A stretch of DNA of 64,000 nucleotides from Acidobacteriota bacterium (GTDB lineage Bacteria > Acidobacteriota > Terriglobia > Terriglobales > Acidobacteriaceae): positions 124,001 to 188,000 of the forward strand of contig JAJXZT010000049.1 in the NCBI GenBank assembly GCA_021779935.1. Direction: 5' to 3'. This document shows positions 26,746 to 36,547 of the stretch, one piece after another. The translations under genes and the position numbers were made by a program. The first letter of the stretch is position 1; each line of letters opens with the position of its first letter. The notes beneath the pieces were generated by a model. The model ran no database searches. It saw only the letters and a list, made by a program, of their open reading frames with translations, and was not told the origin of the DNA.

Positions 26746-27666
26746 CTAGGAGCGTTCTCTCTGGAACGTATATCGCCCCTTCTCTTGCGTCGCCATTAAC
26801 TCCTGTATCTTCATGAAGGCCCGCGCGGCGTGCGACAGCGCTGCATCCTTCCTGTACACCAGGCGCAACTTACGTTCCAGTCGCAGCTCCCGCACGGAAA
26901 TCTCCACCAGTTCGCCTCGTGATACTTCCGCCTCCACCGCGATGCGCGGCAGCAGTGCGACTCCGTTTCCCATTCCAACGAACGCCTTGATCGCCTCGAT
27001 ATTCGGCAACTCCACGGGCATGTGCAGCGTGGTCTTGTGCTTGGCGAATGCCTGCACCACTTTCTCGCGATACGGCGACAGTACATTATGTGCAACGAAC
27101 GACTCGGCACCCAGCTCGCGTATGCTGACGTTCTTCGTTCCAGCCAGCGGATGCTGCGGATAAACCACGAATGCCAGTTCGTCGTGATAGACGACGACCG
27201 AGGCAATCTGTTCGTCCTCTGGACGAAAAGACAAAATGCCCAGCTCGACGTGATGGTTCAATACTGCTCGCGCCACGTTCGAAGCCAGTGCCCGCTGGAT
27301 TTCGATATGAATCGTCGGATGCGCTCTGCGGAACTTGTTGAGTGCGCGCAATAGGTAGAGCACCGTGAATTCGTTTGCCGCGATCGACAGCTTGCCGTGT
27401 TGCAACTGTCGCAGCTCGCGGAGCGCGTCCCGGGCCCGGCTTCGCAGGTTCAGCAGCTCTTCGGCGTACTTCAGCAGCAAATCGCCCGCGTCCGTAAGCA
27501 TTCCATCGCGCGACGACCGTTCGAACAGCGTTTCTCCCAGTTCGTCTTCCAGCTTGCTGATCGTCTGGCTTACCGCCGACTGCGTCCTGTGCAGGCGATT
27601 TGCCGCGCGCGAGAATCCCTTCTCTTCTACTACTGCAAGAAAAGTCTCCAATTGAAACAAATCCAT
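26746..27666 (-). CDS. LysR-family transcriptional regulator
   Basis: The 306-residue protein has an N-terminal winged HTH (LETFLAVVEEKGFSRAANRL, then SAVSQTISKLEDELG) and a periplasmic-binding-like effector domain. It is transcribed divergently from leuABCD across a 137-bp region that contains a T-N11-A palindrome. The leucine operon is therefore its predicted target, as for other divergent LysR-biosynthesis pairs. The co-inducer is unknown; a branched-chain intermediate is a reasonable guess. Confidence 0.92.
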   Translation of the reverse strand: MDLFQLETFLAVVEEKGFSRAANRLHRTQSAVSQTISKLEDELGETLFERSSRDGMLTDAGDLLLKYAEELLNLRSRARDALRELRQLQHGKLSIAANEFTVLYLLRALNKFRRAHPTIHIEIQRALASNVARAVLNHHVELGILSFRPEDEQIASVVVYHDELAFVVYPQHPLAGTKNVSIRELGAESFVAHNVLSPYREKVVQAFAKHKTTLHMPVELPNIEAIKAFVGMGNGVALLPRIAVEAEVSRGELVEISVRELRLERKLRLVYRKDAALSHAARAFMKIQELMATQEKGRYTFQRERS

Positions 27667-27803: not shown

Positions 27804-29000
27804 ATGGGCACCGATCGCGTGTTGATTTTCGATACTACCCTGCGGGATGGCGAGCAGTCTCCCGGATGCAGCATGACTGTCGACGAGAAGATGACACTGG
27901 CACGAAAGTTGGAAACTCTCGGAGTCGACGTGCTTGAAGCCGGGTTTCCCGTCGCGTCGCAGGGGGACTTCGAAGCCGTGCAGCGCATCGCACGCGAAAT
28001 TCGCGGACCTCGCATCGCTGCCCTGGCTCGTTGCAAGCGCGAAGACATTGCTCTCGCCTGGGACGCACTGCGCGAAGCACGCCATCCGCGTATTCACATA
28101 TTCCTCGCCACCTCGGACATCCATCTTGCCTTCAAGCTGAAAATCACCCGTGCCGATGCCTTGCAGCATGCGGCCGAGTGCGTAGCCTACGCAAAGTCTC
28201 TCTGCGACGACGTCGAGTTTTCGCCGGAAGATGCCACTCGCTCCGACGTGGAGTTTCTGTGCCGCGTGCTTGAAGTCGCCGTCGAAGCGGGAGCCACCAC
28301 GCTCAATATTCCTGACACCGTCGGCTACACTACTCCCACGGAATACGGTGAACTGATTCGCACCATCCGCCAGCGCGTGCGGGGCATCGAGAAGGCGACC
28401 ATCTCTGTTCACTGCCACAACGATCTCGGTCTCGCCGTCGCGAACTCACTGGCTGGTGTGGAAGCCGGGGCGCGTCAAATCGAGTGCACCATCAATGGCA
28501 TCGGCGAGCGCGCCGGCAATGCGGCCCTGGAAGAAGTCGTAATGGCCATGCATGTCCGCGCCGATCGCCTGCCCTTCACCACCGGTATTCAGAAGCAGGA
28601 AATCTACTCGGTCAGCCAGGCGCTCTCGGAGATTACCGGTTCACAAGTGCAGCCCAACAAAGCCATCGTCGGACGTAACGCCTTTGCGCACGAGGCTGGC
28701 ATTCACCAGCACGGTGTACTCAGCAATCCCCTGTGCTACGAAATCATGACACCGGAGTCCGTCGGCGTTTCCGCCAATCACCTGGTGCTCGGCAAGCACT
28801 CCGGACGCCATGCCCTCCACATGCGCTTCCACGAGCTTGGTTATGAGCTGACCAAACAGGACCTCCAGGGCGTCTATGAACGCTTCATTCAACTTGCCGA
28901 CCGCAAGAAGCGCATCTACGATCAGGATTTGATCTCGCTCCTTGCGAATCGTCCTCCGCAGGATCACTCGCAGGGACAATCGGTGGCGGTGATGCAATGA
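27804..29000 (+). CDS. leuA: 2-isopropylmalate synthase lacking the C-terminal regulatory domain
   Basis: The 398-residue enzyme condenses acetyl-CoA and 2-oxoisovalerate. The HMGL-like TIM barrel starts with [24 protein letters not shown] holds metal ligands; GIGERAGNA and [15 protein letters not shown] are LeuA-type. Typical LeuA is over 500 residues because of a C-terminal leucine-binding dimer domain; that domain is missing here and the next gene starts at once. It may be leucine-insensitive, with control moved to the LysR protein. Homocitrate or citramalate synthase are alternatives, but the leuBCD context favours LeuA. GGAGG lies before ATG 27804. Confidence 0.92.
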
Positions 29001-31527: not shown

Positions 31528-32142
31528 ATGCAACCACTGCGCGTACACAAGGGACTCGTTGCTCCGCTCAATCGCTCCAATGTTGATACGGACCAGATTA
31601 TTCCGAAGCAGTTTCTCAAGCGCATTGAGCGCACCGGCTACGGCGACTTTCTTTTTTACGACTGGCGTTTGTGCGCCGATGGTTCGCCGGACCCCGGCTT
31701 CGTGCTCAACTCGCCTCGCTACAAGGGAGCCAGCATCCTTGTTGCCGGTCGCAACTTCGGCTGTGGTTCTTCGCGCGAACATGCTGCCTGGGCGCTCTCC
31801 GACTTCGGCTTCCGCGTCGTCATCGCGCCATCGTTTGCGGATATTTTTCTTTCAAACTGTTCGAAGAACGGGATGCTGACCGTTGTTCTTCCCGAGGATT
31901 CGGTTGCGCACCTTTTGCAGAATGCAGAAGCAAAACAGAATTACGAACTGACCGTCGACGTCGAGAAGGCGACTGTTTCCGATGCATTCGGATTCGCGGC
32001 TGCTTTCCCCATCGATCCCTTCAAGCAGTACTGTCTCCTGAATGGCCTCGACGATATTGGCCTCACGCTGCGCCATCAGGATGACATCGCTCGCTTTGAA
32101 ATCGCCCGTCCGTCGTGGCTTTCGGGTGTGGGCGGCTCGTAA
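31528..32142 (+). CDS. leuD: 3-isopropylmalate dehydratase small subunit
   Basis: The 204-residue swivel-domain partner of LeuC. NVDTDQIIPKQFLKRIERTG near the N-terminus and GRNFGCGSSREHAAWAL are the family signatures. Last gene of leuABCD; no terminator is evident before the methionine operon promoter at 32171. Confidence 0.96.
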   Translation: MQPLRVHKGLVAPLNRSNVDTDQIIPKQFLKRIERTGYGDFLFYDWRLCADGSPDPGFVLNSPRYKGASILVAGRNFGCGSSREHAAWALSDFGFRVVIAPSFADIFLSNCSKNGMLTVVLPEDSVAHLLQNAEAKQNYELTVDVEKATVSDAFGFAAAFPIDPFKQYCLLNGLDDIGLTLRHQDDIARFEIARPSWLSGVGGS

Positions 32143-32170
32143 TGCTTCCGGGGATGCGCGAAAAGAGGAT

Positions 32171-32198
32171 TTGACAAATTCGATCGTCCTGCTAAAAT
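32171..32198 (+). promoter_or_regulatory. Sigma-70 promoter of the methionine operon
   Basis: TTGACA (32171-32176), a 16-base spacer, and TAAAAT (32193-32198). The -35 is perfect and the -10 has five of six consensus bases. Transcription would begin near 32205, about 34 bases before the leader-peptide ATG. Confidence 0.75.
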
Positions 32199-32238
32199 TC
32201 TTGTCACTGACCTGTGTGACGCGGTCGGAATCAAAGTT

Positions 32239-32319
32239 ATGCTTCACTTGCTCAGCAACTCGCGAATGCCTATGGCCATGTGCACCCCAGGTGGTGTCAT
32301 GCCGGCGTCGGGAGTCTGA
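32239..32319 (+). CDS. Met-rich leader peptide of the methionine operon
   Basis: A 26-codon frame from ATG 32239 to TGA 32317-32319 has five Met, three in alternate positions (M10, M12, M14), followed by Cys15 and a later M21. No Trp and few charged residues are present. It lies between a strong promoter and an intrinsic terminator ahead of methionine-synthesis genes, so it fits a leader peptide sensing Met-tRNA (or formyl-Met/Cys supply). Only a weak GGA precedes the ATG. Confidence 0.7.
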   Translation: MLHLLSNSRMPMAMCTPGGVMPASGV

Positions 32320-32386
32320 GTAAACACAAATCTCCCTTCACTGAGCGGCCGCCTGGGGGTTCCCAACTGGCGGCGGTTTTGTTTTT
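32245..32386 (+). promoter_or_regulatory. Methionine attenuator with alternative pairings
   Basis: CACTTG (32245-32250) can pair with CAGGTG (32288-32293). CCCCAGGTGG (32285-32294) can instead pair over ten bases, one of them a wobble, with CCGCCTGGGG (32349-32358), the 5' arm of the terminator. A ribosome stalled at Met10-Met14 would cover the first strand, free the second, and so favour antitermination. This is the 1:2 / 2:3 / 3:4 logic of classical attenuators. Pairings were found by eye only. Confidence 0.65.
32348..32386 (+). terminator. Intrinsic terminator of the methionine attenuator
   Basis: GCCGCC (32348-32353) pairs with GGCGGC (32369-32374). Inside, TGGG (32354-32357) pairs with CCCA (32362-32365) around a GGTT loop, with a three-base bulge. 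GGTTTTGTTTTT follows. The tail resembles that of the threonine attenuator. Confidence 0.8.
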
Positions 32387-32424
32387 AGCCACTTTTCGCT
32401 CAATAGCCTCGAAGGGAGACTACC

Positions 32425-33639
32425 TTGTCATCCGACAAAGATTTTCGTGTATCCACGCTCGCCATTCACGGCGGGCTCTCGCCTGATTCGGCCACCGGCG
32501 CGATCCTCACTCCGATTTATCAGTCCACAACGTTTGTGCAGGAAGCTGTTGGCGTGCACAAGGGCTTCACCTACTCGCGCGCGGCGAACCCCACCGTGGA
32601 CGCGCTTGAACGTGCACTCGGTGCGCTCGAGCACACTCCGCCCGCGGTTTGCTTCGCAACTGGCATGGCCGCCATCGCGACTCTTTGTCTGTCGGTGCTC
32701 AAGTCCGGCGATCACGCCGTGCTTGGCGATGTCGTCTATGGTGGCACGGTTCGCCTCTTCCAGCAGGTGCTTGAAGGCCTCGACATTTCGTGCACATTCG
32801 TCGATGCTGCCGATCCACAGCAGGTGGAAGACGCCATCACCGCTAAGACGAAGCTCGTGCTTGTCGAATCTCCCGGCAATCCGACGCTCAAGCTTTGCGA
32901 CATTGCCGCCATCGCTTCCATCACCCGTCGCAAGGGCGTACTTCTCGCCGTTGACAATACGTTTCTCACTCCCGTCGTGCAGAAGCCGCTCGAACTCGGT
33001 GCTGATATCGAGGTTCTTTCCACCACCAAGTACATCGAGGGCCACAACTCAACCGTCGGTGGATCGCTCGCAACGCGCGATCAGAAACTTCTTGACCGCT
33101 TCCGCCTCATTCGCAAAACGCTCGGATGTATTCAGTCGCCCTTCGAGTCGTGGCTGACTCTTCGCGGACTCAAGACTCTTCCGGCCCGCATCAAACTTCA
33201 TTCTGAGAACGCATTGGCGGTCGCTCAATGGTTGGAGAAACATCCTGCCGTCGCGCGCGTGTATTACCCCGGGCTTGATTCCTTCCCGCAAAAAGCTCTT
33301 GCGGAACGCCAGCAATCGCTTCCCGGCGGCATGATCGCTTTTGAACTGAAGGCCGGCTCTCCGGCGGCGATTGCCCTGATGAATACCGTGAAGCTCTGTT
33401 CTCTTGCTGAAAATCTTGGCGCGGTCGAAACCCTCATTACGCATCCGGCCTCCATGACGCATGCCGACGTGGCTCCCGCCAAGCGCGAGGCCATCGGAAT
33501 CACCGAAGGTTTGATCCGGCTCTCCGTCGGGCTTGAAGCTCCGGAGGACATCATCGCCGATCTCGAAAGTGCGTTAGCGGAAGTTGCCGGCAAGGATGCC
33601 GCAGTTGTGGGAGGAGACAAATGCGTCGCTACCCGATAA
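32425..33639 (+). CDS. metB: Cystathionine gamma-synthase / O-acylhomoserine sulfhydrylase family
   Basis: The 404-residue PLP enzyme of the Cys/Met-metabolism family starts at TTG 32425 after AAGGGAG. YSRAANPTVDALERALGALE and the PLP-lysine site STTKYIEGHNSTVGG are clear. It replaces the acyl group of homoserine with cysteine (MetB) or sulfide (MetZ). With a metC-type gene two genes downstream, the transsulfuration role is more likely. It is the first structural gene after the Met attenuator and overlaps the next gene by 19 bases. Confidence 0.88.
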   Translation: MSSDKDFRVSTLAIHGGLSPDSATGAILTPIYQSTTFVQEAVGVHKGFTYSRAANPTVDALERALGALEHTPPAVCFATGMAAIATLCLSVLKSGDHAVLGDVVYGGTVRLFQQVLEGLDISCTFVDAADPQQVEDAITAKTKLVLVESPGNPTLKLCDIAAIASITRRKGVLLAVDNTFLTPVVQKPLELGADIEVLSTTKYIEGHNSTVGGSLATRDQKLLDRFRLIRKTLGCIQSPFESWLTLRGLKTLPARIKLHSENALAVAQWLEKHPAVARVYYPGLDSFPQKALAERQQSLPGGMIAFELKAGSPAAIALMNTVKLCSLAENLGAVETLITHPASMTHADVAPAKREAIGITEGLIRLSVGLEAPEDIIADLESALAEVAGKDAAVVGGDKCVATR

Positions 33640-35351
33640 TCGTTCTCAAGTTCGGCAGCTCCGTGCTGCGAAAAGAAGAAGATCTCGCGCACGCCGTGCA
33701 CGAAATCTACCGCTGGGTGCGCCAGGGGCAGCGAGTAATCGCCGTCGTCTCCGCCATCGGATCATCCACCAACCAACTGCTCGCGCAATCGCAGGCCTAC
33801 GGAGACCGCATCAACGAGCATGCCATTGCCGCCCTCGTCTCCACCGGAGAGGCGCAATCATCCGCGCTGCTCGCGCTCGCGCTCGATCGCGCTGGCGTGC
33901 CGGCGTCCATTTTTGACGAGTCACGTCTCGGTCTGCGGGCCGAGGGTGCCGTGCTCGACTCGGAACCCGTCAGTCTCGATGCGGAAGCGGTCTTCCGCTC
34001 ACTGGAGAAGCACGCTGTCGTTGTAGTCCCCGGATTCGTGGGGCGCCAGCACGATGGCAGCATTTGTCTCCTCGGGCGTGGCGGGTCCGATCTCACTGCC
34101 GTCTTCGTCGCGCAGCAACTTGGCGCGGAGCGATGTCGCTTGATCAAGGATGTCGATGGAGTCTTCGAGTCCGATCCCGCTCTCGGAAAATATCCCCGCC
34201 GTTACCGTTTCATTCACTTCGCCGAAGCCCGCAAGATTGCTGGCCGTCTCGTACAGGCCAAGGCAATCGATTACGCCGCCCATCATCACCTGCCGATTGA
34301 AGTTGCGACCCTTGGTTCCACTTCGCCAACTACGATCAATGACAGCGCGCCGATCTTCTACACCGATCGCACGGACCTTCCGCAAGTGCGTGTTGGGTTG
34401 CTCGGTGCGGGCACGGTTGGCCTCGGCGTTTACCGTCGTCTGTCTGAAATTCCAGACTACTTCGACGTCGTCAAAGTTGCAGTTCGCAACGTCGTTCGCC
34501 ATCGCGATATCCCGCGTGAACTGCTTACCGACGACCCGTGGCAGGTAGTTGAGAGCGATTGTGATCTTGTCATCGAGTTGATTGGCGGCCTCTCTCCTGC
34601 TGCGGAATTGATTGAAGCTGCGCTTCGCTCCGGCAAGCACGTCATTACTGCAAACAAACTGGTCATCGCACACAAGGGCCAGGAGCTTCGCCACATCGCT
34701 GCTGAAAAGGGTGTCGCATTGCTCTACTCGGCCGCCGTTGGCGGAGCCGTTCCAATGCTGGAAGAGGTAAGTCGCCTCGCGCTTGATGCATCGATTCATC
34801 GCGTGCAGGGAGTCATCAACGGCACCACGAACTTTGTCCTTGATCGCATCGCCGAAGGTTTCGATCCCGACGAAGCTCTGTGTGAAGCGCAGCGCCTTGG
34901 ATTTGCCGAGCAGGATCCCAGTTCCGATCTTGACGGTCGCGACGCCGCTCATAAACTTTCTCTGCTCGCCCACAGCGCCTTCGGTGCGTGGATTGAGCCT
35001 GGGGAGATCGCGCGCACGGGGATCGAAGGCCTCGACGTCGAATTTATTCGCGACGCCACTGCATCCGGTCGAGTCGTGCGGCTCATCGGTGAAGTCGAGC
35101 GCCACGCAGACGGAATCCGTGCGCGAGTCGCCCCTGCTGCCGTTGACGCCGGCGATCCTCTCGCCAACACGCGCAACGAAGAAAACTGCCTTGTTGTTCA
35201 TTCCGCATCCGGGGAATTGCTCCAGGTACGCGGCAAGGGTGCTGGCCGTTGGCCCACCACGGAAGCCGTCATCGGCGACATCTTCGAACTGCATCGCTCG
35301 GGCAAACTACGCCCAGCTTCGCTGTCGATTGCAGAGCGGAGGATCTCGTGA
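33621..35351 (+). CDS. Fused aspartokinase-homoserine dehydrogenase without ACT domains
   Basis: The 576-residue bifunctional enzyme has an aspartokinase domain at about 1-245 (VLKFGSSVLR, ALVSTGEAQSSALLA, LLGRGGSDLTA, LIKDVDGVFESDP). This is joined almost directly to a homoserine dehydrogenase at about 255-576 (GAGTVG 262-267, GKHVITANKLVIA, VQGVINGTTNFVLDRI). Enterobacterial ThrA/MetL are about 810-820 residues because a regulatory ACT region separates the halves; none fits here. Feedback inhibition may therefore be absent and control transcriptional. GGAGGAG precedes ATG 33621. It is the middle gene of the Met operon. Confidence 0.93.
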   Translation: MRRYPIIVLKFGSSVLRKEEDLAHAVHEIYRWVRQGQRVIAVVSAIGSSTNQLLAQSQAYGDRINEHAIAALVSTGEAQSSALLALALDRAGVPASIFDESRLGLRAEGAVLDSEPVSLDAEAVFRSLEKHAVVVVPGFVGRQHDGSICLLGRGGSDLTAVFVAQQLGAERCRLIKDVDGVFESDPALGKYPRRYRFIHFAEARKIAGRLVQAKAIDYAAHHHLPIEVATLGSTSPTTINDSAPIFYTDRTDLPQVRVGLLGAGTVGLGVYRRLSEIPDYFDVVKVAVRNVVRHRDIPRELLTDDPWQVVESDCDLVIELIGGLSPAAELIEAALRSGKHVITANKLVIAHKGQELRHIAAEKGVALLYSAAVGGAVPMLEEVSRLALDASIHRVQGVINGTTNFVLDRIAEGFDPDEALCEAQRLGFAEQDPSSDLDGRDAAHKLSLLAHSAFGAWIEPGEIARTGIEGLDVEFIRDATASGRVVRLIGEVERHADGIRARVAPAAVDAGDPLANTRNEENCLVVHSASGELLQVRGKGAGRWPTTEAVIGDIFELHRSGKLRPASLSIAERRIS

Positions 35352-36547
35352 AATTCGCAACCCGTCTTCTTAACTTCGATGCCTGTCCCGGCGATCCCTA
35401 TCGTCCCGTGGCCACGCCCATCTATCAGACTGCGACTTTCGAGCAGGAGCGTGCTGACGGATTTGGCCCTTACGATTACTCGCGCAGCGGCAATCCCACT
35501 CGCAGTGTTGTCGAGGAGCAGTTGGCGCGACTGGAGAACGCATCGCGTGCATTTTGTTTTGCCAGCGGATTAGCTGCCATCACTGCTGTCACGCGCCTGC
35601 TCGCCTCGGGTGAAGAAATACTTGCCGGCGATGATCTCTATGGCGGTTCTTATCGTCTCTTCTCGCGCATACTCAGCCGCACTGGCATCGGCGTTCGCTA
35701 TGCCGATGCCTGCAATCTCACGGCTTTTCGCGATGCATTCACGCCGGCAACCAAGCTCGTCTATATTGAGTCTCCAACCAATCCACTGCTGCGCATTGCG
35801 GACATTCCCGCACTTGCCGAACTAGCTCATCGACATGGCGCGTTGTTGTGCGTCGACAACAGCGCAATGTCGCCGTATCTCCAGAATCCTCTCGACCTCG
35901 ACGCCGACATCGTGCTTCACTCGGCGACGAAATACCTTTGCGGACACAGCGACGTCACTGCCGGTGTTGTCGCCGTCAGCGACCCCGAACTTGCCGAGCA
36001 GATTTACTTCCTGCAGAATGGCGAAGGCAGCGCTCTTGGTCCGTTTGATTCCTATCTCCTGTTGCGCGGATTGAAAACTCTCAAACTCCGTCTCGATTGC
36101 CAGCAGCGCAACGCGCAATACGTTGCAGAGTTCCTTGCTTCTCATCCGCTCGTGCAAAAGGTGCACTATCCCGGACTCGCCAGCCATCCCGGCCATGCGC
36201 TCCACGCTACGCAGGCCCGCGGCGCCGGAGCTGTCATTAGTTTTGAGACTGGCTCTTACGAGTTCTCCCGCCGGTTCGTGGAGGCCGTAAAGCTCTTCCA
36301 CATCACCGTGAGTTTCGGCAGTGTTAACAGTTCTATAAGCCTGCCGGGATGCATGTCCCATGCCAGCATTCCTGCGGAAGTGCGCGCCGCCCGTTCGCTC
36401 GCTTTGGATCTTGTCCGTCTCTCCATCGGTATCGAGGATGAGTCCGACCTGGTCGCGGATCTTGCTTCCGCTTTCGAGTATGCCAGCAGTGGAACTGCGG
36501 CGGCTCCGGCGGTCAGGACTCGGGGTCCCGTAGTTGATTTGGACTAG
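35348..36547 (+). CDS. metC: Cystathionine beta-lyase-type PLP enzyme
   Basis: The 399-residue protein starts at GTG 35348 (GTGA overlap with the previous stop, GGAGG upstream); an upstream in-frame extension lies inside the previous gene. YDYSRSGNPTRSVVEEQLA and SATKYLCGHSDVTAGVV (PLP lysine in SATKY) resemble beta-lyases of the plant/Bacillus type more than gamma-synthases. It would split cystathionine to homocysteine, completing transsulfuration after MetB. An O-acetylhomoserine sulfhydrylase activity cannot be excluded. Confidence 0.85.
   Translation: MKFATRLLNFDACPGDPYRPVATPIYQTATFEQERADGFGPYDYSRSGNPTRSVVEEQLARLENASRAFCFASGLAAITAVTRLLASGEEILAGDDLYGGSYRLFSRILSRTGIGVRYADACNLTAFRDAFTPATKLVYIESPTNPLLRIADIPALAELAHRHGALLCVDNSAMSPYLQNPLDLDADIVLHSATKYLCGHSDVTAGVVAVSDPELAEQIYFLQNGEGSALGPFDSYLLLRGLKTLKLRLDCQQRNAQYVAEFLASHPLVQKVHYPGLASHPGHALHATQARGAGAVISFETGSYEFSRRFVEAVKLFHITVSFGSVNSSISLPGCMSHASIPAEVRAARSLALDLVRLSIGIEDESDLVADLASAFEYASSGTAAAPAVRTRGPVVDLD

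Follow-up and report, generated by a model that had tools for sequence, protein, structure and literature searches.

Bacterial methionine genes are best known under the control of riboswitches, T-boxes and protein regulators, and leader-peptide transcription attenuators run the trp, his, leu, phe, thr and ilv operons. In Arabidopsis, cystathionine gamma-synthase is autoregulated by SAM via the nascent peptide, within the coding sequence and at the level of mRNA stability. Amino-acid leader-peptide attenuators are discussed in passages of PMC2965389 and PMC1262725; according to the survey passages, hardly any of the attenuators predicted in Acidobacteria had been given a function (PMC2965389). 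In the consulted part of a comparative study of Actinobacteria, cysteine leader peptides with Cys codons near the stop are described for the Mycobacterium cys operons, with no conserved hairpins reported, and no conserved RNA structures are reported before methionine operons (PMC1262725). Passages of a further paper propose metL, a Met-containing leader peptide before metNIQ, in Streptomyces lividans, without a typical Rho-independent terminator (PMC8079986), and the Xanthomonas campestris SAM-I riboswitch is described, in an excerpt of its report, as also answering uncharged initiator tRNA (PMC7270179).

We analysed a stretch of 64,000 nucleotides from a member of the Acidobacteriaceae (the window), in which a short Met-containing frame precedes methionine genes. 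Comparison of related genomes indicates that this leader represents a real methionine leader-peptide attenuator family of the Acidobacteriaceae with two outputs, the sensing step of which we infer. This family is not described within the literature searched (open-licence PMC text), where no Met leader peptide beyond the S. lividans proposal appeared among the matches listed. An earlier note on this DNA had stated that no well-characterised example of Met leader attenuation was known; that statement needs softening, given the proposal of metL in passages of PMC8079986.

Gene organization of the locus

The leader region lies downstream of leuABCD, named via NCBIfam models, and ahead of metB. The end of leuD is at 32142 and metB starts at 32425, with a promoter-like site, the leader frame and a hairpin in between:

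32171-32198, forward strand: promoter-like site (TTGACA, 16 nt, TAAAAT), 11 of 12 consensus matches
32239-32319, forward strand: leader open reading frame, MLHLLSNSRMPMAMCTPGGVMPASGV and stop, with an in-frame open ATG conserved across loci
32347-32386, forward strand: predicted terminator hairpin (3:4) and T-tract, in the minimum-energy fold
32425-33639, forward strand: metB, a Cys/Met-metabolism PLP enzyme, whose best NCBIfam model is cystathionine gamma-synthase with a score below its cut-off
33621-35351, forward strand: aspartokinase-homoserine dehydrogenase fusion, from model matches
35312-36547, forward strand: metC, cystathionine beta-lyase, TIGR01329 above cut-off

The earlier note had described a near-consensus promoter, a 26-codon frame with Met at codons 10, 12, 14 and 21 and a terminator with a T-tract, and all of these are present in the window sequence. 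The predicted promoter has its -35 TTGACA at 32171-32176 and its -10 TAAAAT at 32193-32198, and a promoter scan of 31800-32800 found this one site, where shuffled sequence gave a mean of 0.2. The 26-codon frame also has Met at codon 1. The T-tract TTTTGTTTTT occupies 32377-32386, and the minimum-energy fold of 32205-32387 contains the predicted hairpin (z -2.1, with 9 of 200 shuffles folding as well); a simple terminator scan of the window left the hairpin at 32347-32386 unflagged.

Some observations concern the neighbouring genes. At only 576 aa, the aspartokinase-homoserine dehydrogenase fusion has Pfam matches to kinase and dehydrogenase domains and none to an ACT domain, which might point to an escape from feedback inhibition. 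A gene for a LysR-family regulator (26746-27666) is divergent from leuABCD, and no leader peptide was seen by eye ahead of leuA/leuABCD. The matches of LeuA (27804-29000, 398 aa) to 2-isopropylmalate synthase models, which are 494-516 positions long, cover only the initial 385-392 or so; from these alignments LeuA seems to be without the C-terminal part, which we take to be the leucine feedback domain.

Occurrence in the Acidobacteriaceae

A pattern search of 398 genomes of the family, a covariance model and the reading of the matches gave 44 loci in 40 of the 398 genomes and 14 of 79 genera. The pattern search yielded 71 places in 58 genomes, 55 of which were read; the 16 unread matches have codons unlike the leader, and none of them was reported by the covariance model. 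At E <=0.001 the model matched 42 of the 398 genomes, which became 40 after two matches (G046 and G279) were judged false on reading. The model search across more than 40 genomes used strict filters and scored 10 candidates per genome, so that 40 of 398 is a lower bound. No credible match was found with the model outside the family among 399 genomes of the class, six weak matches there (G110, G117, G144, G465, G555 and G652) being judged false on reading. A strict exact-pattern scan of named genomes returned 20 stretches, titled Acidobacteria, Acidobacteriota, Acidobacteriaceae or Granulicella.

The gene downstream of the element, identified by blastp against the window proteins (three queries aligned over just 22, 49 and 75 residues), is metB at 42 loci and metC at the other two. 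The latter belong to genus g40 (two genomes, G039 and G158), in which metC lies on a different contig from metB and has its own copy of the element (L073 and L075). Two genomes (G284 and G424) have two copies each, and these may be mixed bins. Identity of metB to the window copy is 53-78% at 40 of the 42 metB loci, the remaining two being the window's own copy and a fragment of 75 residues with 83% identity.

The stretch ATGNNNATGNNNATG alone occurs three times in the 64 kb when both strands are counted; it is not rare by itself, and the case for the element therefore rests on conservation. The check proposed in the earlier note was a conserved Met-rich short frame upstream of metB in relatives, and such a frame was found at the 44 loci of 14 genera. 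Because the frame, the Met codons and the helix between regions 2 and 3 (2:3, see below) are kept despite the divergence of metB to 53-78%, their conservation is more than chance.

Evidence of selection on the leader frame

The part of the leader that is conserved across the loci is a short segment in the middle of the frame:

32263-32280, forward strand: control segment CGA-AUG-NNN-AUG-GCC-AUG (R-M-x-M-A-M), conserved in 44 loci

Its Met codons lie at 32266-32268 (Met1), 32272-32274 (Met2) and 32278-32280 (Met3). The frame test covered 33 of the 44 loci, one further locus being cut by a contig end. At 31 of the 33 loci, the 30 nt ahead of the Met segment contain an in-frame ATG with an open frame, compared with 1 of 33 in each of the other frames, and the remaining two loci start the leader with an in-frame GTG. 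Since the in-frame start is kept so consistently (31/33 versus 1/33 and 1/33), this comparison indicates that the leader frame is under selection. Ahead of the Met segment the N-terminus is variable in sequence, and its length varies by whole codons. Counted from the first base of the CGA codon, the leader stop falls 54 nt further on in 29 of the first 34 loci, and the tail is unconserved as peptide, with early stops, one lost stop and one frameshift among the loci.

Within the segment, the CGA codon is kept at 41 of the 44 loci, Met1 at 39, Met2 at 43, and both Met3 and an Ala, Gly or Ser before it at all 44; it should be considered that the search pattern itself fixed some of these bases at the loci it found. 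The codon of the small residue between Met2 and Met3 is GCC at 38 loci, GCT at three, GGC at two and AGC at one. The five losses of Met1 are all in genera g34 and g64. One genome (G271) has Met2 replaced by Ile together with one 2:3 mismatch, which counts against invariance, and it was kept in the set. The mean entropy of the Met segment is 0.13 bits at wobble bases, against 0.25 at first and 0.39 at second bases. CGA makes up 8% of the 196 Arg codons in seven genes of the window, and it stands before Met1 at 41 of the 44 loci. We also observed that the codon before Met2 (32269-32271) ends in T at 34 of the 44 loci, for most of which the search pattern required a pyrimidine. The CGA before Met1 and the T-ending codon before Met2 may be decoded slowly and so pace the ribosome, or they may reflect an RNA constraint.

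Two groups of loci deserve separate mention. At five loci (L010, L013, L015, L016 and L074) the leader ATG lies, by eye, about 6-10 nt past a -10-like box, and the transcript from which the leader is translated there may be almost leaderless. At six loci of g34 and g64 (L052, L102, L103, L136, L137 and L138), some leaders have lost Met1, stop early and have a doubtful terminator, and judging from these sequences some leaders of the two genera look as if they are decaying.

Alternative pairings and the metB start

The RNA between the Met segment and metB contains the following elements, in addition to the terminator hairpin:

32285-32295, forward strand: region 2, antiterminator 5' arm, within the leader frame, pairing with 32348-32358
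32305-32314, forward strand: leader codons GCGUCGGGAG, able to extend the antiterminator helix and to hold the anti-Shine-Dalgarno, from the tail x linker test
32331-32346, forward strand: linker with the anti-Shine-Dalgarno UCUCCCUUC (32331-32339) and UGAGC (32342-32346), from the linker x Shine-Dalgarno test
32348-32358, forward strand: region 3, antiterminator 3' arm and terminator 5' arm, with both-sided changes in L073, L075 and L103
32398-32402, forward strand: GCUCA, which may pair with UGAGC at 32342-32346 and lengthen the sequestering stem, from the sequence and a weak test
32411-32419, forward strand: metB Shine-Dalgarno GAAGGGAGA, target of the anti-Shine-Dalgarno, from the sequence and genus-by-genus complementarity

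The earlier note had drawn two mutually exclusive pairings and expected compensatory changes in both. One of them, between 32285-32294 and 32349-32358, is exact in the window, is lengthened by one extra pair (32295 with 32348) and has these changes. The comparison used two alignments, A1 with 28 of 31 loci and A2 with 41 of 44, without G174, G246 and G198, which are identical to G259 in this stretch. Across 41 sequences, 98.4% of 451 cells of the 2:3 helix are paired, and slid versions of the helix pair at most 58.4% of cells. Four pairs, in 14 cells, are changed on both sides, whereas shuffled alignments have a mean of 2.8 such cells and none of 500 reached as many; the number of both-side pairs was reached by 16 of 500 shuffles and the number of pair types by 14 of 500. 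In a permutation between genera, none of 5000 gave complementarity as good. In the metC copies of g40 (L073 and L075), 2:3 is kept by partly different bases. Region 3 is shared by 2:3 and the terminator hairpin of the window, which makes the two mutually exclusive.

The other pairing drawn earlier, between 32245-32250 and 32288-32293 (1:2), has no such signal: complementarity of the leader N-terminus with region 2 across genera equals that of permuted combinations (z 0.0). We rejected it as a pairing that is drawable in the window sequence and without comparative support. To our knowledge, the 1:2 protector hairpin of trp-type attenuators is not required in all leader-peptide attenuators. Likewise, no genus-specific pairing of the Met segment with region 2, region 3, the linker or the Shine-Dalgarno was detected, all values being near the permuted ones.

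For the terminator, 3:4 complementarity is weakly better than permuted (262 of 5000 as good). The T-tract is not kept in all genera, and by a crude count 9 of the 14 genera have one or more loci with at least six T in eight. Complementarity of the leader tail with the linker was equalled by 51 of 5000 permutations between genera, and by 14 of 3000 in the first set of loci.

The strongest genus-by-genus signal came from the sequestration of the metB ribosome-binding site, a feature absent from the earlier note. The anti-Shine-Dalgarno at 32331-32339 is perfectly complementary to the ribosome-binding site at 32411-32419. With one locus per genus, the linker and its own Shine-Dalgarno have a mean of -16.85 kcal/mol, compared with -12.52 kcal/mol for permuted partners, and none of 5000 permutations was as good; with the GGAG core masked, 15 of 5000 were. 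Pairing of the 3' part of the linker with the bases before the Shine-Dalgarno gave a weak result, with 83 of 3000 permutations as good. The anti-Shine-Dalgarno:Shine-Dalgarno helix, which would provide a translational output, is thus supported by the comparison of genera.

Folding in the presence of a ribosome

Folding with a ribosome mask was predicted for 34 of the 44 loci, on the assumption that a waiting ribosome shields some 12 nt downstream from the start of its A-site codon. With the mask at Met1 or Met2 (+12 footprint), 2:3 is favoured in 31 and 32 of the 34 loci, respectively. For a mask at Met3 the outcome varies with the footprint, 2:3 leading in 2 of 34 loci (+12) or in 23 of 34 (+8), and beyond Met3 (+12) it leads in none of the 34. 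With the +12 footprint, the predicted fold thus flips from 2:3 to 3:4 once the ribosome stands on Met3 or one codon further. When the ribosome is placed on the stop codon and no pairs are allowed across it, 3:4 has a mean of 0.73 and the metB Shine-Dalgarno a mean opening of 0.08. Enforcing 2:3 raises this opening to a mean of 0.29, with the site more open in 31 of the 34 loci; the opening in the predicted on state is modest. From the masked folds, slow decoding of Met should let transcription proceed and leave the metB start accessible, and fast decoding should terminate transcription and hide the start.

When spanning pairs are allowed with the ribosome on the stop codon, 2:3 averages 0.86. 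In RNA that begins at the CGA codon, with no ribosome, it has a mean of 0.87 and leads in 32 of the 34 loci; with 24 nt more of upstream RNA, untranslated, it leads in 20 of 33 and with 58 nt in 18 of 33. The untranslated RNA of the window favours 3:4 (0.88) when the upstream leader is included, and in G000 the value of 2:3 changes from 0.78, starting from the CGA codon, to 0.00 with 24 or 58 nt more upstream. The modelled resting fold is therefore dependent on the amount of upstream RNA included. As 2:3 is still favoured in many loci, the off state there would need timing or steric separation.

Search for known methionine regulators

Discovery of a known SAM aptamer over the leader would have spoken against the earlier proposal. 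At the gathering score, Rfam models had no match in the window or in 16 relatives, and at E <=10 only three chance-level, non-SAM matches fell in 32143-32440. SAM-I was present in 6 of 20 genomes checked (four of g34, one of g31 and one of g18), and a genome-wide search did not find it in the genome of the window. The four g34 genomes with SAM-I also have the leader, and those of g31 and g18 gave no leader match in the pattern or model search. Regarding the SAM-I loci themselves (L111-L116), the next gene is thrC at L114, with a model above cut-off, and the other five look alike by eye; SAM-I in some Acidobacteriaceae would accordingly stand ahead of threonine synthase and not of a methionine gene. 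T-boxes were found in none of the 20 genomes, with controls positive in five, and none was found in the window; MetJ was found in none of the 20, with a positive E. coli control. SAM-II was also found in none of the 20, but its controls were equally silent, so that this search says nothing on its absence. In a genome in which SAM-I, T-box and MetJ were not found, the element offers a possible answer to how methionine synthesis is regulated in a little-studied group.

Model of regulation and alternatives

Comparison of the loci establishes a frame under selection, the Met codons, the 2:3 and anti-Shine-Dalgarno:Shine-Dalgarno helices and the restriction to met genes. On this basis the leader is probably a ribosome-operated attenuator for methionine. 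We infer that it is translated while the RNA is still being made, that the ribosome is the switch and that the charging of Met-tRNA is the signal. A shortage of charged Met-tRNA would make the ribosome wait at Met1 (32266) or Met2 (32272), with its front edge just short of region 2, and region 2 would pair with region 3. The 2:3 helix would remove the 5' arm of the terminator and transcription would continue, while the leader tail could hold the anti-Shine-Dalgarno and leave the metB start exposed. When Met-tRNA is plentiful, the ribosome would pass region 2 to the UGA stop, the 3:4 terminator would form and the linker would pair with the metB Shine-Dalgarno. With both the terminator and the sequestration in place, the operon would be off at two levels. 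One leader would thereby join two outputs, a terminator and the sequestration of a ribosome-binding site.

Some of the evidence counts against this model. Met3, at which a stall would mask region 2 (+12), is never lost, and a sensor of charging alone would need neither the strict M-x-M-A-M spacing nor the CGA codon nor the small residue. The cross-genus support of the terminator is weak, the predicted folds give no clean off state in many loci, the Shine-Dalgarno opens modestly in the on state, and two of the pair-count measures of 2:3 are less extreme. An alternative is a nascent-peptide arrest sensor, in which R-M-x-M-[A/S/G]-M would act from within the exit tunnel and methionine or SAM would be the co-effector; the abundant metabolite would arrest the ribosome on or just after Met3, covering region 2, so that the terminator forms and the Shine-Dalgarno is sequestered. 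We consider this reading unlikely. It stays alive because of the invariance of Met3 (44 of 44, with Met2 in 43 and an intervening residue that is always small despite codon changes), the low wobble entropy, the CGA codon and the off-state folding, in which a ribosome at Met3 or the next codon gives the predicted flip to 3:4. It is opposed by the loss of Met1 at 5 of the 44 loci and by a tail that is unconserved as peptide, and an active mask is less needed when the full untranslated leader prefers 2:3 in just 18 of 33 loci. If true, such a sensor would follow in bacteria the same logic as the arrest that SAM triggers in plant cystathionine gamma-synthase. The leader is a clean system in which to ask whether tRNA charging or the metabolite itself is read.

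The same low wobble entropy of the Met segment (0.13 versus 0.25 and 0.39 bits) would also be expected if the Met codons were an RNA constraint and the leader were translated without sensing methionine specifically, for instance reporting general translation capacity or helping ribosomes to reach metB. The anti-Shine-Dalgarno:Shine-Dalgarno helix suits such control by leader translation, but the position of the element before metB at 42 loci and before metC at two argues against it, and the leader stop, 105 nt upstream of the metB start, is far for reinitiation; we regard this explanation as distinctly unlikely. The strong nucleotide conservation from CGAATG to ATGGCCATG, wobble positions included, could alternatively come from an undescribed aptamer, a SAM or methionine riboswitch that overlaps the frame by accident. 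This is very improbable, as Rfam gave no match in the window and the 16 relatives and none above chance in 32143-32440, and the start codon is kept in frame while the sequence ahead of the Met segment varies. Moreover, in five relatives (G062, G088, G019, G039 and G158) the leader ATG stands so close to a -10-like box, by eye about 6-10 nt past it, that an aptamer could not fit upstream. A functionless chance combination of open frame and hairpin could appeal to the three occurrences of ATGNNNATGNNNATG in the window, and it is contradicted by the conservation in 14 genera and by the permutation and pair-count tests, which reduce its probability to nearly nothing.

Relation to described systems

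The attenuator proposed here resembles those of the trp, his, leu, phe, thr and ilv operons in having a short leader frame with control codons for the end product of the pathway, a region 2 that would start just ahead of a ribosome waiting on the control codons, and an antiterminator and a predicted terminator that are mutually exclusive. It differs from them in its amino acid, methionine, and in codons that are spaced M-x-M-A-M and do not form a run. Furthermore, a conserved 1:2 hairpin is absent here, the anti-Shine-Dalgarno:Shine-Dalgarno helix, with its genus-by-genus support, would add translational control, and the element was found only in Acidobacteriaceae. Arabidopsis cystathionine gamma-synthase belongs to the same enzyme class as the product of metB and is also controlled through a peptide under translation, in which it resembles the nascent-peptide alternative; it is eukaryotic, the control lies inside the coding sequence and it acts on mRNA stability.

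The Mycobacterium cys leaders share a leader peptide for a sulphur amino acid and control beyond an intrinsic terminator alone, whereas two helices are supported here and, in the passages on the cys leaders, the Cys codons are near the stop (PMC1262725). The X. campestris SAM-I riboswitch, as described in the excerpt, also senses Met supply via the state of a tRNA, with a mainly translational output in a met operon; it is an aptamer RNA, and that excerpt mentions no leader peptide (PMC7270179). With S. lividans metL, the element has in common that methionine genes are preceded by a short frame containing several Met codons; according to the passages of that paper, metL precedes a transport operon, its peptide MSTTSDRTPATEATTTPGARCMCRRMCAF also has three Cys and no R-M-x-M-A-M, and those passages hold no conservation evidence (PMC8079986). 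The logic proposed for the Acidobacteriaceae leader is that of a classical amino-acid attenuator plus a translational lock.
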